A DNA stretch of 56,201 bases from Longimicrobium sp. (GTDB lineage Bacteria > Gemmatimonadota > Gemmatimonadetes > Longimicrobiales > Longimicrobiaceae). Each line of letters opens with the position of its first letter. The first letter of the stretch is position 1. Under the pieces are notes generated by a model. It saw nothing but the letters and a program-made list of their open reading frames with translations, made no database searches and was not told where the DNA came from. The DNA is taken from positions 1 through 56,201 of the forward strand of contig DASUYB010000040.1 of the NCBI GenBank assembly GCA_036377595.1. Reading direction: 5' to 3'. Below, piece after piece: positions 48,117 through 54,168 of the stretch. The translations under genes were made by a program, and so were the position numbers.

Positions 48117-49145
48117 ATGACGCTGCACGCCGAGCCCGCACCCGGTCTCCTCCGGATCCCCGACATCGCCCTTCGCCCGGACGCGGCGCGGACCCGGCAC
48201 GTCCTCTCCATCCTCGACCTGTCGCCCGGGGAGGTGCACTACCTGGCCCGGCGCGCCGTGCGGATCAAGCACGCCCCGACCGCCCCCGACACGCTGCGCG
48301 GCCGCACGGTGGGCGTCTACTTCCGCAAGACGTCCACCCGCACCCGCACCTCCTTCGTGGTGGGCGCCGGTCGGCTGGGGGCCACCGTGGCCACCTTCGG
48401 CCCGGGCGACCTGCAGACCAACACGGGCGAGACGCTGGAAGACACCGCCCGCACCTTCGCCGGGTACCTGGACGTGCTGGTGATGCGCACCAACGAGAGC
48501 GTGGACGAGATGAAGACCTTCGCCGCGCACCCGGGGATGTCGGTGGTCAACGCGCTCTCCTCGGACGAGCACCCCACGCAGGCGCTCGCCGACCTGGCCA
48601 CCCTGCTGGAGCACTTCGGGCGGCTGGAGGGGCTCGACCTGCTCTACTGCGGCGAGGGGAACAAGACCGCCGCCGCGCTGGCGCTGGCGCTGAGCCGCAT
48701 CCGCGGGACGCGGCTCACCCTGGCCACGCCCGAGGGGTACGGCCTCGACCCGCGGAAGCTGGCTATCGCGCGGGCGCAGGCCGCCGAGTCCGGCGCCACG
48801 GTGGAGGAGACACACGACGCCGGTTCCCTCCCGCGCGGGGTGGACGCGGTGTACACCAGCCGCTGGCAGGAGATGGGGGTGGAAAAGCCGGACCCCGAGT
48901 GGACGACCCTCTTCCGGCCGTTCGCCGTCACCCGGGCGCTGATGGAGCGGGTGTCGAAGCCGCGGGGGACGGTGTTCCTTCACGACCTTCCCGCCGTGCG
49001 CGGCGAAGACGTGGACGACGAGGTGCTCGACGGGCCGCAGAGCCTGGCCTGGGTGCAGGCCCAGCACAAGATGTGGAGCGCCATGGCGGTGCTGGAGTGG
49101 TGCGGCGCGGGCGTCGTGGACGCCGAGATCTCCTCCCCCTCCTGA
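48117..49145 (+). CDS. OTC-fold carbamoyltransferase with altered substrate motif
   Basis: 342 residues. It transfers the carbamoyl group of carbamoyl phosphate to an amine, forming a ureido group. The carbamoyl-phosphate loop is FRKTSTRTR at 69-77, and HPTQ is at 152-155. Ornithine carbamoyltransferases then have HCLP, whose Cys contacts ornithine. Here it is HDLPAVRGEDV (HDLP at 289-292), and the SMG loop is changed to SRWQEMG. The amine acceptor is thus probably not ornithine. It is first of five same-strand genes; the next starts eight bases after its stop. The neighbours are not arginine genes, so a specialised pathway is more likely. Confidence 0.88.
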   Translation: MTLHAEPAPGLLRIPDIALRPDAARTRHVLSILDLSPGEVHYLARRAVRIKHAPTAPDTLRGRTVGVYFRKTSTRTRTSFVVGAGRLGATVATFGPGDLQTNTGETLEDTARTFAGYLDVLVMRTNESVDEMKTFAAHPGMSVVNALSSDEHPTQALADLATLLEHFGRLEGLDLLYCGEGNKTAAALALALSRIRGTRLTLATPEGYGLDPRKLAIARAQAAESGATVEETHDAGSLPRGVDAVYTSRWQEMGVEKPDPEWTTLFRPFAVTRALMERVSKPRGTVFLHDLPAVRGEDVDDEVLDGPQSLAWVQAQHKMWSAMAVLEWCGAGVVDAEISSPS

Positions 49146-49153
49146 GCCCGGCC

Positions 49154-50155
49154 ATGCAGCCCGGATTCCTCCTGGACACCCGCGACGCCCCCGCGCACGC
49201 CGCGCCGGCCGTGGCCGCCGTGCGCATCCTGCCGCCCGCGAGCGAGTTCCGCGTGGGGCACGGCGAGATCCACGCGCACCACGGCGAGATCGTGCAGGGG
49301 ATGTTCTACTCGAGCGACGGGACGGTGGAGCACGGGCTGGTCACCCTCCCGTGCACCCTGTTCCGCACCGCCGGCCGCTTCCGTCCCCTGCCCTCGGGGC
49401 CGCTCACGGTGGAGCCGGGCGACCGCTCGCGGGCGAAGGCCGCCGCCCGGCTCACGCTGGACGCGCTGGGGCGCACCGGGTGGGGCGGGGCGATCCGGAT
49501 CGAGAGCAACGTCCCCGTCCAGTGGGGGTGCGGCTCGTCGACCACCGACGTGCTGGCCACCATCCGCGCGGTCACCGACGCCTTCGGCGCGGTGCTGGAG
49601 CCGGCGTGGATCGCGGGGCTGGCCGTGGCCGCCGAGACCGCGTCGGACTCGCTGATGTTCGGCCCCGGCCGCGCGGTGCTCTTCGCGCAGCGCCGCGGCC
49701 GCGTCCTGCTGGACCTGGGCGGGCCCCTCCCCGCGGTGCGGGTGCTGGGCTTCAACACCGAGGGCGAGCGCGGCGTGGCCACGCTGACCCTTCCGCCCGT
49801 CCCCTACTCGGCGTGGGAGATCGAGGCCTACCGCGCGGTCCTGGGGCTGCTGCGCCGCGCGGTGGAGGAGCAGGACCCCGGGCTGCTGGGGCGCGTGGCC
49901 ACCGGCAGCACCCTGATCATGCAGCGCCACCGCCCCAAGCGGCACATGCCCGAGCTCCTCCGCCTGGCGAAGGAGGCGGGCGCGCTGGGGGTGCAGGTGG
50001 CGCACAGCGGCACCGTGGCCGGCTTCCTCTTCGAGCCCGGGCCCGGGGCCGCCGGGCGGATCGAGCTCGCGCGCGCCGGCCTGCGCCGGCTGGGCCTGTC
50101 CTCGAGTTGGGAGTTCTCCACCGAGCTCGCCTCGCACCCGGAGGTTGCCGCGTGA
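49154..50155 (+). CDS. GHMP kinase, PduX (L-threonine kinase)-like
   Basis: 333 residues. GHMP motifs: HGEIVQG at 43-49, the ATP loop GCGSSTTDV at 125-133 within VPVQWGCGSSTTDVLATIRA, and the C-terminal AHSGTVAGFL. This order resembles PduX, which makes O-phospho-L-threonine. By analogy it may phosphorylate the hydroxyl of threonine, serine or homoserine, creating a leaving group for the next enzyme. It overlaps the following GTG by four bases (GTGA). No cobalamin genes are near, so a B12 role is unlikely. Confidence 0.82.
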   Translation: MQPGFLLDTRDAPAHAAPAVAAVRILPPASEFRVGHGEIHAHHGEIVQGMFYSSDGTVEHGLVTLPCTLFRTAGRFRPLPSGPLTVEPGDRSRAKAAARLTLDALGRTGWGGAIRIESNVPVQWGCGSSTTDVLATIRAVTDAFGAVLEPAWIAGLAVAAETASDSLMFGPGRAVLFAQRRGRVLLDLGGPLPAVRVLGFNTEGERGVATLTLPPVPYSAWEIEAYRAVLGLLRRAVEEQDPGLLGRVATGSTLIMQRHRPKRHMPELLRLAKEAGALGVQVAHSGTVAGFLFEPGPGAAGRIELARAGLRRLGLSSSWEFSTELASHPEVAA

Positions 50156-51216
50156 GCGGTCCCCTGATCCACGCCAACTTCGTGGACGCGCTCGCGCTTC
50201 CCCGCCTGGTCCGGCTCCGCCCCAACCTGATCGGATTGGCCTTCCCCCTGATGAAGCTGCTCCCGGCGCGCTTCATCGTGCGCAAGGCGCTGGAGGAGGG
50301 CGAGCTGCGGCCGGGCGGCCTCATCGCCGAGACCACCTCCGGCACCTTCGGGCTGGCGCTGGCGATGGTGGCGCGGCTCGGCGGCCACCCGCTGACGCTG
50401 GTGAGCGACCCGGCCATCGACGCCCCGCTCGAGCGGCGGCTGGAAGACCTGGGCGCCACGGTGCACATCGTGCGCGAGCCGGGGCCCACCGGCGGCTTCC
50501 AGCAGGCGCGGCTCGCGGTGCTCGAGCAGGTGCTGGCCGAGCACCCGGGGAGCTTCTGCCCCCGCCAGTACAGCAATCCGCACAACCCGGAGAGCTACGC
50601 CCCCTGCGCCGAGCAGCTGGCCCACGCGGCGGGCGCCATCGACTGCCTGATCGGCACCGTGGGGTCGGGCGGGAGCGTGTGCGGGATCTCGTCGTACCTG
50701 CGGCTGATCTGCCCCGAGCTGACGGCGATCGGCGTGGACACGCACCGCAGCGTGATCTTCGGCCAGTCCGACGCCGGAAGCGGGCGGCTGCTGCGCGGGC
50801 TGGGGAACTCGCTGATGCCGCCGAACGTGGACCACTCGGCGTTCGACCTGGTGCACTGGGTGGGCGCGGCCGAGGCCTTCCGCGCCACGCGCCAGCTCCA
50901 CCGCGAGCACGCGCTCTTCATGGGCCCCACCAGCGGCGCGGCGTACCTGGTGGCCGAGTGGTGGGCGCGCGAGAACCCCGACCGGCTGGGCGCCGTGATC
51001 TTTCCCGACGAGGGGTACCGCTACCAGGACACCGTCTACGACGACGCCTGGCTGGAGGCGAAGGGGGCGCGCCTCGACGTGCTCCCGCGGGGGCCCGTGG
51101 AGTGGGAGCACCCCCACGACGGCCACGACCCGTGGGCGTTCTTCCGCTGGGGCCGCCGCTCGTACGCCGAGGTGATGGACCAGCCCGGCGCCAACCTGAG
51201 GCTGGTGCCGGCGTGA
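50152..51216 (+). CDS. cysteine-synthase-fold PLP enzyme, atypical
   Basis: 354 residues starting at a GTG within a GTGA overlap. The fold-type II PLP pattern is visible: TSGTFGLALAMVARLGG (62 onward; TSGNTG in cysteine synthase), the phosphate-binding GTVGSGGSVCG and a late PTSGAAYL. The usual SVKDR with the PLP lysine is absent. Alignment by spacing to the LRPGG block puts Lys35 (FPLMKLLPARF) in its place. It could replace a phosphate or acetate on a beta carbon with an amine or thiol, like SbnA or VioB; that is inference. The following ATP-grasp gene overlaps its stop codon. Confidence 0.82.
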   Translation: MSGPLIHANFVDALALPRLVRLRPNLIGLAFPLMKLLPARFIVRKALEEGELRPGGLIAETTSGTFGLALAMVARLGGHPLTLVSDPAIDAPLERRLEDLGATVHIVREPGPTGGFQQARLAVLEQVLAEHPGSFCPRQYSNPHNPESYAPCAEQLAHAAGAIDCLIGTVGSGGSVCGISSYLRLICPELTAIGVDTHRSVIFGQSDAGSGRLLRGLGNSLMPPNVDHSAFDLVHWVGAAEAFRATRQLHREHALFMGPTSGAAYLVAEWWARENPDRLGAVIFPDEGYRYQDTVYDDAWLEAKGARLDVLPRGPVEWEHPHDGHDPWAFFRWGRRSYAEVMDQPGANLRLVPA

Positions 51217-52493
51217 GCACGGCCCCCGCCGGAAAGGCGCTGCTCTTCGTCGAGAGCAACACCAGCGGAACGGGGCGGCTCTTCGCGCGCACCGCCCGGA
51301 GCATGGGCTTCCTCCCGGTGCTGATCACCGCCCGGCCCGGGAAGTACGCCTACCTCGCCGAGGAGGGCGCGCCGGAGGTGGTCGTGGTCCCGCGCGTCGA
51401 CGAGGACGAGCTGCACGCGCTGGTCGCCGCGCGCTGGGGCGGAGCCGCCGGGGTGGCCGGGATCACCTCCAGCTCCGAGTACTTCGTCGCCACCGCGGCG
51501 GCACTGGCGGCGCGCTTCGGCCTTCCCGGCCCGAGCGCGGAGTCCGTTCGCGCCGCGCGCGACAAGTCGCGGCAGCGCCAGGTGCTGGCCGCCGGCGGGA
51601 TCCCGGTCCCCGCCTTCCGCGCCGTCTCCTCGGCGCCCGAGGCCGTGGCCGCCGCGCGCGCGATCGGCTTTCCCGTGGTGGTCAAGCCGGTGGACGGGAG
51701 CGGGAGCGTGGGCGTGCGCGCCTGCGCCGACGAGGCCGAGGTCCGGGCCCACGCGGCGGCGCTCTTCGCCCGGGACGGCGAGGATCCCCGCGTCCTGGTG
51801 GAGTCGCTCGTGGCCGGCGACGAGTTCTCCGTCGAGGTCTTCTCCGGGCGGGTGGTGGGGATCACCCGCAAGCACCTGGGAGATCCGCCCTTCTTCGTCG
51901 AGGCGGGGCACGACTACCCGGCCGACGTCCCCGGGGAGGCCGCATCGGCGCTGGTCGACTCGGTGATGCGCGGGACGGCGCTCCTGGGCCTGGGGTGGGG
52001 CCCGCTCCACTGGGAGCTGCGGATCGACCGCGAGGGGCGCGCCGTGCCGATGGAGGTCAACCCGCGGCTGGCCGGCGGCTTCATCCCCGAGCTGGTGCGC
52101 CACGCCGAGGGGATCGACCTGATCCGCGAGACGCTGCGCCTGGTGGTGGGGCGGAAGCCGGGGCTGGTCCGGGCGCACCGGCGGCACGCCTCCATCCGCT
52201 TCCTCTTCGCGCCCGGCGCGGGGCGGCTGGCGGCGATCGAGGGGATGTCGGACGCGCTCAGCCGCCCCGACGTGGTGGAGGTGCGCGCGTACCGCCACGC
52301 CGGCGACGCGCTGTCCGTCCACGGCGACTTCCGCGACCGCATCGGCCACGTGGTCGCCTGCGCCCCGGAGGCCCGCTCGGCGTCACGCGCCGCGGAGCGC
52401 GCCCGCGACATCGTCCGCATCCGGGTCGACGCCCCCGCTCCCGCGGCCGACTCCACCGCGCCCCTGGTGGGCGCGGGAGAGGCGGCGGCGTGA
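51213..52493 (+). CDS. ATP-grasp ligase (amino-acid ligase type)
   Basis: 426 residues. It joins a carboxylate to an amine through an acyl phosphate. The ATP-grasp core has GFPVVVKPVDGSGSVGV (Lys158), EFSVEVF and the metal site MEVNPRLAGGFIPEL (Glu281, Asn283). The N-terminal part is a Rossmann-like pre-ATP-grasp domain (ALLFVESNTSGTG), as in carnosine-synthase and BacD-type ligases. The Ala/Pro-rich tail is probably disordered. It could form a dipeptide, or condense aspartate with a substrate before the lyase acts. The start GTG lies within GTGA. Confidence 0.88.
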   Translation: MSTAPAGKALLFVESNTSGTGRLFARTARSMGFLPVLITARPGKYAYLAEEGAPEVVVVPRVDEDELHALVAARWGGAAGVAGITSSSEYFVATAAALAARFGLPGPSAESVRAARDKSRQRQVLAAGGIPVPAFRAVSSAPEAVAAARAIGFPVVVKPVDGSGSVGVRACADEAEVRAHAAALFARDGEDPRVLVESLVAGDEFSVEVFSGRVVGITRKHLGDPPFFVEAGHDYPADVPGEAASALVDSVMRGTALLGLGWGPLHWELRIDREGRAVPMEVNPRLAGGFIPELVRHAEGIDLIRETLRLVVGRKPGLVRAHRRHASIRFLFAPGAGRLAAIEGMSDALSRPDVVEVRAYRHAGDALSVHGDFRDRIGHVVACAPEARSASRAAERARDIVRIRVDAPAPAADSTAPLVGAGEAAA

Positions 52494-54031
52494 GCGAGGA
52501 CACCGGGCGGATCCGCCGGGCGCTGGACCCGCGCGCGCGAAAGATCGTCTTCGGCGACGACGCCGGCCCGGCGATCCGCGACGAGCTCCCGTTCTACGTC
52601 CGCATCGACCGGGCGCACCTGACGATGCTGGTGGAGCGCGGGATCCTTGCCCCCGGGCGCGGGCGGCGGCTCCTGGCCGCGATGGACCGGCTCGTTGTGG
52701 AAGACTACGCGCCGCTGAAGGGGCGCGCGGCGCCGCGCGGGCTGTACCTCCTCTACGAAAGCTGGCTGGTCGAGACGCTGGGCGAGGAGACCGGCGGCGC
52801 GGTGCACCTGGCCCGCTCGCGCAACGACATCAACGCCACCGTCCTCCGGCTCCGGCTGCGGGAGCCGTACGGCCGCCTCCTCGGCGAGGTGCTCCGCCTG
52901 CTGGCCGTCCTGGTCCGCCGCGCCGAGCGCCATGCCGCCACCACGATGCCGGTCTACACGCACTACCAGGCGGCGCTCCCGGTCACCTTCGGGCACTACC
53001 TGGCCGGCGTGGCCCTGGCGCTCTTGCGCGACCTGCACGGGATCGAGGCCGCGGCCGCGGCCGCCGGCCTCGACCGCTGTCCGCTGGGCGCCGGCGCGGC
53101 GGGGGGAACCACGGTGCCGATCGACGCGGAGCGGACGGCGGCGCTCCTCGGCTTCGCCGAGGGCGTGCTGCACTCGATCGACGCGGTGGCCTCGCGCGAC
53201 CTGGTTCTCCGCCTCCTCTCGGCCGCGTCGGTCCTGGGCGTCACGCTCAGCCGGCTGGCGACCGACCTGCAGCTCTGGAGCACGGCGGAGTTCGGCCTGG
53301 TCTCCTTCCCCGACACCCTGGTCGGCTCCAGCTCGATGCTGCCGCAGAAGCGCAACGCCTTCCTCCTGGAGCACGTGCAGGGGCGGGCCGGGGCGCCGCT
53401 GGGGGCCTTCACCGCGGCCGCCGTGGCGATGCACGCCACGCCGTTCAGCAACTCGGTGGCCGTCGGCACCGAGGGGGTGCGGCCGCTCTGGGGCGCGCTG
53501 GAGGGGGTGACGGAGGCGGTGGTCCTCTCCCGCCTCGTCGTTGCCGGCGCCGAGCCGCGGCCGGAGCGGATGCGCCGGCGGGCGGACGAGGGGTTCACCG
53601 CCGCCACCGAGCTGGCCAACCGGCTGGTGCTGGAGACGGGGATGTCGTTCCGCCGGGCGCACCACCGCGTGGGCGAGCGGGTGACGGAGGCGGCCGCGCG
53701 CGGAGAGCCGCTGGCGGACGCGGCCGGCGCCCTCTTCCGCGAGCTGGGGATCGACGCGGACGCGGCCGGCCTGGACCCCGCCGCGGTCGCGGCGGCGGCG
53801 GCGCACGGCGGAGGGCCGGCCAAGGTCGCGCTGCGCCGCGCCGTTGCCGAGCTGCGGCGCGAGTGGTCGGCCGCCGCCCGCCGGCTCCACGCGCGCCGGG
53901 AACGGTGGCGCGAGGGCGACCGCGCCCTGGACGCCGCGGCGGCCGGGGTGCTGGCCGGCGAGCCTGCGCCCGACGACGCGCCGTCCGGGCCGATGGCGGC
54001 GCCGGCGACGGAGCCGGCCCCGGCGGGATGA
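52490..54031 (+). CDS. argininosuccinate-lyase-like enzyme
   Basis: 513 residues of the fumarase/aspartase superfamily. Signatures: HLARSRND at 106-113 (HTGRSRND in argininosuccinate lyase), THYQAALPVTFGHYLAG at 157-173, GAGAAGGTTVPID at 200-212 and the catalytic loop GSSSMLPQKRN at 279-289 (GSSIMPQKKN in the family). It would eliminate fumarate from an N-(dicarboxyethyl) compound to release an amine, amide or guanidine. No argininosuccinate synthase is present, and the motifs drift from housekeeping ArgH. The GTG start overlaps the ATP-grasp stop. The Ala/Pro-rich tail (last 45 residues) is unusual. Confidence 0.88.
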   Translation: MSEDTGRIRRALDPRARKIVFGDDAGPAIRDELPFYVRIDRAHLTMLVERGILAPGRGRRLLAAMDRLVVEDYAPLKGRAAPRGLYLLYESWLVETLGEETGGAVHLARSRNDINATVLRLRLREPYGRLLGEVLRLLAVLVRRAERHAATTMPVYTHYQAALPVTFGHYLAGVALALLRDLHGIEAAAAAAGLDRCPLGAGAAGGTTVPIDAERTAALLGFAEGVLHSIDAVASRDLVLRLLSAASVLGVTLSRLATDLQLWSTAEFGLVSFPDTLVGSSSMLPQKRNAFLLEHVQGRAGAPLGAFTAAAVAMHATPFSNSVAVGTEGVRPLWGALEGVTEAVVLSRLVVAGAEPRPERMRRRADEGFTAATELANRLVLETGMSFRRAHHRVGERVTEAAARGEPLADAAGALFRELGIDADAAGLDPAAVAAAAAHGGGPAKVALRRAVAELRREWSAAARRLHARRERWREGDRALDAAAAGVLAGEPAPDDAPSGPMAAPATEPAPAG

Positions 54032-54057
54032 CCGGGCGATCCGGAAAAAGATCTGGC

Positions 54058-54118
54058 TCACGCAGAACCGCGGAGGCAGCAGAGAACTCACCTCTGCTGC
54101 CTCCGCTGCTCTGCGTGA
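54058..54118. terminator. operon terminator, CTCACGCAGA repeat copy 2
   Basis: Outer arms TCACGCAGA (54058-54066) and TCTGCGTGA (54110-54118) enclose a perfect 15-base stem GCGGAGGCAGCAGAG (54070-54084) with CTCTGCTGCCTCCGC (54092-54106) and a 7-base loop. It begins 26 bases after the lyase stop codon. The outer sequence is shared with 34338-34413. Confidence 0.7.
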
Positions 54119-54168
54119 TACCGGAATCTGCGGATTAATTGTGCAATCAGACCAACAGAATGACTCAC

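Follow-up and report, generated by a model that had tools for sequence, protein, structure and literature searches.

A five-gene operon of Longimicrobium sp. that may supply a ureido amino acid to a nonribosomal peptide

We examined an operon near the right end of a 56,201-base stretch of DNA from Longimicrobium sp. (the window), which is a complete contig (C40) of a 7.2-Mb genome in 208 contigs. Its five genes encode, in order, a carbamoyltransferase, a GHMP-family kinase, a pyridoxal phosphate (PLP) enzyme, an ATP-grasp ligase and a member of the argininosuccinate lyase (ASL) superfamily. We propose, at what we judge to be even chances, that the operon supplies a ureido amino acid, 2-amino-3-ureidobutyrate, made from threonine via 2,3-diaminobutyrate, to the product of a nonribosomal peptide synthetase (NRPS). 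In this route the kinase would phosphorylate the hydroxyl of threonine (or of a close beta-hydroxy amino acid) to give O-phosphothreonine, and the PLP enzyme would swap the phosphate for a donor amino group, most likely that of aspartate, to give 3-(aspartyl-N)-2-aminobutyrate. The lyase would then take off fumarate to leave 2,3-diaminobutyrate, whose 3-amino group would be carbamoylated by the carbamoyltransferase, yielding 2-amino-3-ureidobutyrate (beta-methyl-albizziine), while the ATP-grasp ligase would perform an amide-forming step at some point. The pathway class is well supported by the gene set, the clade membership and active-site motifs of the proteins, their conservation, the NRPS linkage in relatives and a match between loop type and pathway; from these we infer the substrates, the aspartate donor, the product, the order of the steps and the step taken by the ligase.

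The five genes lie on the forward strand, with a first intergenic gap of 8 bases and GTGA overlaps at the remaining three junctions, an arrangement that the first-pass annotation of this DNA had described and that the coordinates bear out. Its five family assignments likewise agree with the domain matches, which are, in gene order, OTCace_N/OTCace, GHMP_kinases_N/C, PALP, ATP-grasp_4 with LAL_C2, and Lyase_1 with ASL_C2. Third-position GC is 0.96-0.98 across all five genes. Three relatives within the genus, G286, G180 and G032, have the same set in the same order (the lyase of G180 is cut by a contig end), and the clade to which the PLP enzyme belongs is present in four of the six genomes of the genus that were searched, the window's own included. 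An MbtH gene stands directly upstream of the operon in G286, and in G032 the operon comes after polyketide synthase/NRPS genes, two ABC transporters and an aminotransferase.

The carbamoyltransferase (48117-49145) appears, by its motifs, to be of the type that acts on diamino acids. Its sequence and those of the three relatives carry STRT (SxRT), HPTQ and HDLP (HDLPAVR in the window) together with the substrate loop SRWQEMG. According to a review of the family, HDLP with (T/S)RWQTTG identifies 2,3-diaminopropionate (Dap) transcarbamylases (DPTCases) and HDLP with TRWQSMG one 2,4-diaminobutyrate (Dab) transcarbamylase (DBTCase), that of padanamide (PMC4581275). The window loop matches neither exactly. 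VioL-type DPTCases (viomycin, zwittermicin) and the padanamide DBTCase have in common with the operon enzyme the HDLP motif, the RWQ loop, a place in natural-product clusters and, as we propose for the operon enzyme, a ureido amino acid as product (PMC4581275); they differ from it in the loop, which is SRWQEMG here and SRWQTMG or ARWQTMG in the Streptomyces five-gene clusters, and in the partner pathway, which here is a kinase cassette instead of SbnA/SbnB. The protein scores 237.6, below the ornithine carbamoyltransferase (OTC) cut-off of 280.85, and lacks DxxxSMG and HCLP. In the tree it groups with full support with proteins of Streptomyces NRPS clusters, apart from the housekeeping OTCs, and the genome has a separate OTC (ArgF) with the usual DxxxSMG and HCLP.

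The loop also goes with the company that the enzyme keeps. Relatives of the carbamoyltransferase occur in 80 of the 393 Streptomyces genomes sampled, and the loop type was read in the 30 best-scoring loci. The PLP clade was present in 9/9 genomes with the RWQTMG loop but in only 1/21 with TRWQTTG (p 7e-7, uncorrected for kinship), although the PLP sample was smaller (344 Streptomyces genomes against 393), so that some TTG genomes were perhaps never examined. In nine Streptomyces genomes an RWQTMG carbamoyltransferase shares a contig with the full set of kinase, PLP enzyme, ligase and lyase, within NRPS clusters; the carbamoyltransferase lies about 26 kb from the other four genes in seven of these genomes, 40 kb away in G585 and less than 9 kb away in G336. 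At the TRWQTTG loci, SbnB was nearby in 7/17, five of which had SbnA too. Thus RWQxMG carbamoyltransferases accompany the kinase cassette, whereas RWQTTG enzymes do not and often stand beside SbnA/SbnB. In the five-gene cluster of Streptomyces G466 (L109, 13088-15366), the carbamoyltransferase is followed by two proteins, one resembling class II tRNA synthetases and the other a flavin mononucleotide (FMN) protein that resembles glutamate synthase, and similar proteins were seen by eye in other clusters.

The PLP enzyme (50152-51216), of fold type II, had been likened to SbnA and VioB. That identity is ruled out by its score of 203.8 against an SbnA (TIGR03945) cut-off of 349.95 and by the tree, which places it in a separate, fully supported clade of 27 sequences linked to the kinase. 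This clade is marked by MKLLPAR, SGTFG and PDEGxRY (MKLLPAR, TSGTFG and PDEGYRY in the window), where SbnA has KDR, SGN and PDRGDRY. The operon does resemble the SbnA/SbnB pathway to L-Dap (staphyloferrin B) in the PLP fold and in the phosphorylated substrate and diamino acid product expected of it; it differs in having its own PLP clade and motifs, a lyase in place of SbnB and a dedicated kinase. The genome holds a second paralogue of the PLP enzyme, with about 72-73% identity, in an NRPS cluster that also encodes SbnA and SbnB (G000:C79:56000-72000, L043). Cytochrome P450s and an LCM-type methyltransferase are also present there, and kinase, ligase and lyase are absent from the stretch read. 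G180 has a second copy as well (C463, L046; about 72% identity), beside NRPS genes.

The kinase (49154-50155) matched GHMP domains only in the family-model search. Its structure model (mean predicted local distance difference test, pLDDT, 81) matched GHMP kinases in general, including the homoserine kinase 1fwk (template modelling, TM, scores 0.66/0.74), and did not distinguish the substrate. PduX is an L-threonine kinase of the GHMP family, to which the operon enzyme would be comparable as a GHMP kinase with threonine as its predicted substrate. O-Phosphoserine and O-phosphohomoserine are ordinary primary metabolites, so a dedicated kinase suggests O-phosphothreonine. In the Streptomyces loci L054 and L197, the cassette has a gene of the threonine-aldolase family next to it; at two further loci, L060 and L143, the neighbour of the kinase and PLP genes resembles threonine synthase. 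The likely substrate, judged from the dedicated kinase and these neighbours, is therefore threonine or else a beta-hydroxy amino acid close to it. Of the earlier proposal, in which the kinase activates a hydroxy-amino acid, the logic largely held, with threonine likelier than serine or homoserine and the setting shifted to an NRPS peptide; the pairing of kinase and PLP enzyme was supported by their co-occurrence across loci. If serine or homoserine were the precursor, the product would be a C3 or 2,4-diamino acid and its ureido derivative, as in the Dap and Dab transcarbamylase pathways. We regard this as improbable: the dedicated kinase would be idle, the genome already has SbnA/SbnB for Dap elsewhere, and the threonine-aldolase neighbours indicate a beta-hydroxy amino acid. 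It would, however, fit the weak matches of some cassette kinases to homoserine kinase models and the loop of the padanamide Dab transcarbamylase, TRWQSMG, which is also of the MG kind (PMC4581275).

The last gene (52490-54031) encodes an ASL-superfamily enzyme that probably frees fumarate from an N-substituted aspartate, judging from its motifs and its place in the tree. It lies outside the ArgH clade on a separate branch (support 99), and its RSRNDI lacks the glutamine of the ArgH motif RSRNDQ; the genome has a separate ArgH copy. EDDS lyase of Chelativorans (PDB 6g3d), which joins amines and fumarate into N-substituted aspartates (PMC12363623), is placed on the lyase family's side of the tree (99), on a long branch. 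The two share the superfamily, the N-terminal region, YE and QLWST-type motifs and, probably, a C-N cleavage giving fumarate, but differ in biological setting. The suggestion that a fumarate-releasing type of lyase and a diamino-acid type of carbamoyltransferase belong to one pathway is supported. On a Cupriavidus plasmid (L056, 9902-12436), an ASL-like lyase (42% to P0005) adjoins a binding protein of a tripartite tricarboxylate transporter and perhaps serves the breakdown of N-substituted aspartates.

The fourth gene (51213-52493) encodes what is, by domain and predicted fold, an L-amino-acid ligase. It has a LAL_C2 domain, and its model (mean pLDDT 87) has the L-amino-acid ligase fold, with 3vot as the best structural match (TM 0.81). 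The known ligases BL00235, RizA and BacD also have the LAL_C2 domain and match the model's fold with TM 0.70-0.81 over the query; they make free dipeptides, whereas the operon ligase is tied to a kinase, a PLP enzyme and a lyase. It was present wherever a lyase of the operon's lyase family stood with the kinase and PLP enzyme, and since it is constant in the set it probably performs an essential amide-forming step. In G367 (L146), a distant relative of the ligase has as neighbours an MFS transporter and another PLP enzyme, which is SbnA-like, with neither lyase nor kinase.

The first-pass annotation had named conservation in related genomes as a check, and the set is indeed kept, both by the relatives within the genus and by NRPS clusters of Streptomyces. 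The cassette of kinase, PLP enzyme, ligase and lyase is also found in Azospirillum, where an Lrp-type regulator and an EamA/DMT exporter accompany it; in Sulfuriferula; in Streptomyces, where it lies next to NRPS genes on plasmids as well as chromosomes; and in a Pseudonocardiales metagenome-assembled genome and another actinobacterium. In Sinorhizobium and Mesorhizobium (plasmid loci L053, L058 and L059), ligase and lyase form one protein of about 900 residues that adjoins the kinase and PLP enzyme, and an Lrp regulator lies downstream of the cassette in L058 and L059. Six loci (L051, L052, L060, L062, L063 and L143) have kinase and PLP enzyme without ligase and lyase; these are mostly on plasmids of nodule-associated bacteria, some of them near MmgE/PrpD, MFS or threonine-synthase-like genes. 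By this distribution there are three units: the kinase with the PLP enzyme, the ligase with the lyase, and the carbamoyltransferase by itself. At the thresholds used, the PLP clade was found in 31/344 Streptomyces genomes and in 2/398 genomes of Pseudomonadota, and with so few members in the latter the cassette is rare and scattered.

Several points weigh against the route from threonine to 2-amino-3-ureidobutyrate. There is no NRPS gene beside the operon in the window, where most genes 5' of the operon relate to sugars and where the contig breaks off within a group II intron, 2.2 kb past the operon; we therefore infer the NRPS link in the window from its relatives. The loop types fall into two clades in a tree built without the loop (the MG side joined weakly, 84/69; the TTG side 97/97), and with only two clades the match of loop to pathway may represent a single evolutionary event. 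The lyase, with a score of 285.6, is just above the ArgH (TIGR00838) cut-off of 279.5, and its relatives carry the annotation argH, as might be expected of a second arginine branch (OTC with ASL) whose genes were reused or misread and whose neighbours are unrelated. We think such a branch highly improbable, given the strongly supported separate clades of carbamoyltransferase and lyase, the lack of HCLP and DxxxSMG, the ArgF and ArgH encoded elsewhere in the genome and the NRPS neighbours in relatives. Housekeeping arginine or cysteine enzymes were ruled out by trees, motifs and the separate genome copies; on the phylogenetic check proposed earlier, the proteins are diverged and fall outside the housekeeping clades.

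The main unexplained part is the ligase, which is constant in the set although a route to diaminobutyrate needs no ATP-grasp enzyme. The leading rival explanation would give it a task: ligase and lyase might form an amidation unit like PurC/PurB, in which aspartate is joined to a carboxylate and fumarate removed to leave a carboxamide, while kinase and PLP enzyme would use a different nucleophile to build the other part of the molecule, and the carbamoyltransferase would act on an amine of the product. The fusion of the two proteins in rhizobia, their match to the two halves of one NCBI family (PRK02186) and the plasmids on which kinase and PLP enzyme stand alone would all agree with this. However, the ligase is closest to L-amino-acid ligases that form dipeptides, its distant relative in G367 is accompanied by a different PLP enzyme and by no lyase, and a diamino acid is the simplest explanation for an MG-type carbamoyltransferase, so that we consider an amidation unit unlikely, if less so than the serine or homoserine pathways.

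For the limits of the operon, the first-pass annotation had marked a promoter candidate and a strong terminator. No sigma-70-like promoter was found for the operon. Just 3' of it, on the forward strand, lies a perfect 15-bp inverted repeat (54070-54106), and the region 54050-54130 folds at -56.6 kcal/mol (z -11.2). The hairpin thus stands, as a possible transcription end, but it has no T tract, and a search for an intrinsic terminator 3' of the last gene found none. An IS21 remnant guessed by eye 5' of the operon was rejected, there being no Pfam match. Beyond the hairpin, on the reverse strand, a group II intron reverse transcriptase with a maturase domain lies in two frames, apparently frameshifted, at the contig end (54300-55693). 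Positions 760-40208, by eye, are largely given over to the use of sugars and glucans, with ROK-type regulators, transporters and glycosidases, and are unrelated to the operon.

Parts of the proposed chemistry are already known, namely diamino acids made by PLP enzymes, ureido groups made by VioL-type enzymes and, in pacidamycin, 2,3-diaminobutyrate from threonine. Among known systems, 2,3-diaminobutyrate is supplied to the uridyl peptide antibiotics pacidamycin and mureidomycin and to acidic lipopeptides such as friulimicin. One account says that the 2,3-diaminobutyrate of pacidamycin comes from threonine (PMC10714638), and another reports a cysteine-synthase-like and an ASL-like enzyme in a gausemycin-type cluster (PMC12471526); in contrast to the operon, neither passage names a carbamoyltransferase. 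A literature search, in which subscription journals were thinly covered, found no paper describing the exact five-enzyme set. We put forward more tentatively, at somewhat less than even chances, the wider claim that NRPS clusters of two phyla hold a five-enzyme route, not described before, to 2-amino-3-ureidobutyrate or its amide or dipeptide, that the constant ligase-lyase pair (fused in rhizobia) is a new catalytic unit and that the RWQxMG loop of HDLP transcarbamylases marks the substrate.

The proposal gives a definite type of product to a scattered and unnamed cassette, whose members are annotated as cysteine synthase, argininosuccinate lyase and kinase. It also offers marks for genome mining, with the RWQxMG loop and kinase cassette on one side and RWQTTG with SbnA/SbnB on the other. 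If it is true, ureido residues in Streptomyces peptides of undetermined structure might become predictable from sequence, and it raises the question of what part the ligase plays in making diamino acids, both in NRPS clusters and on the plasmids of nodule bacteria.

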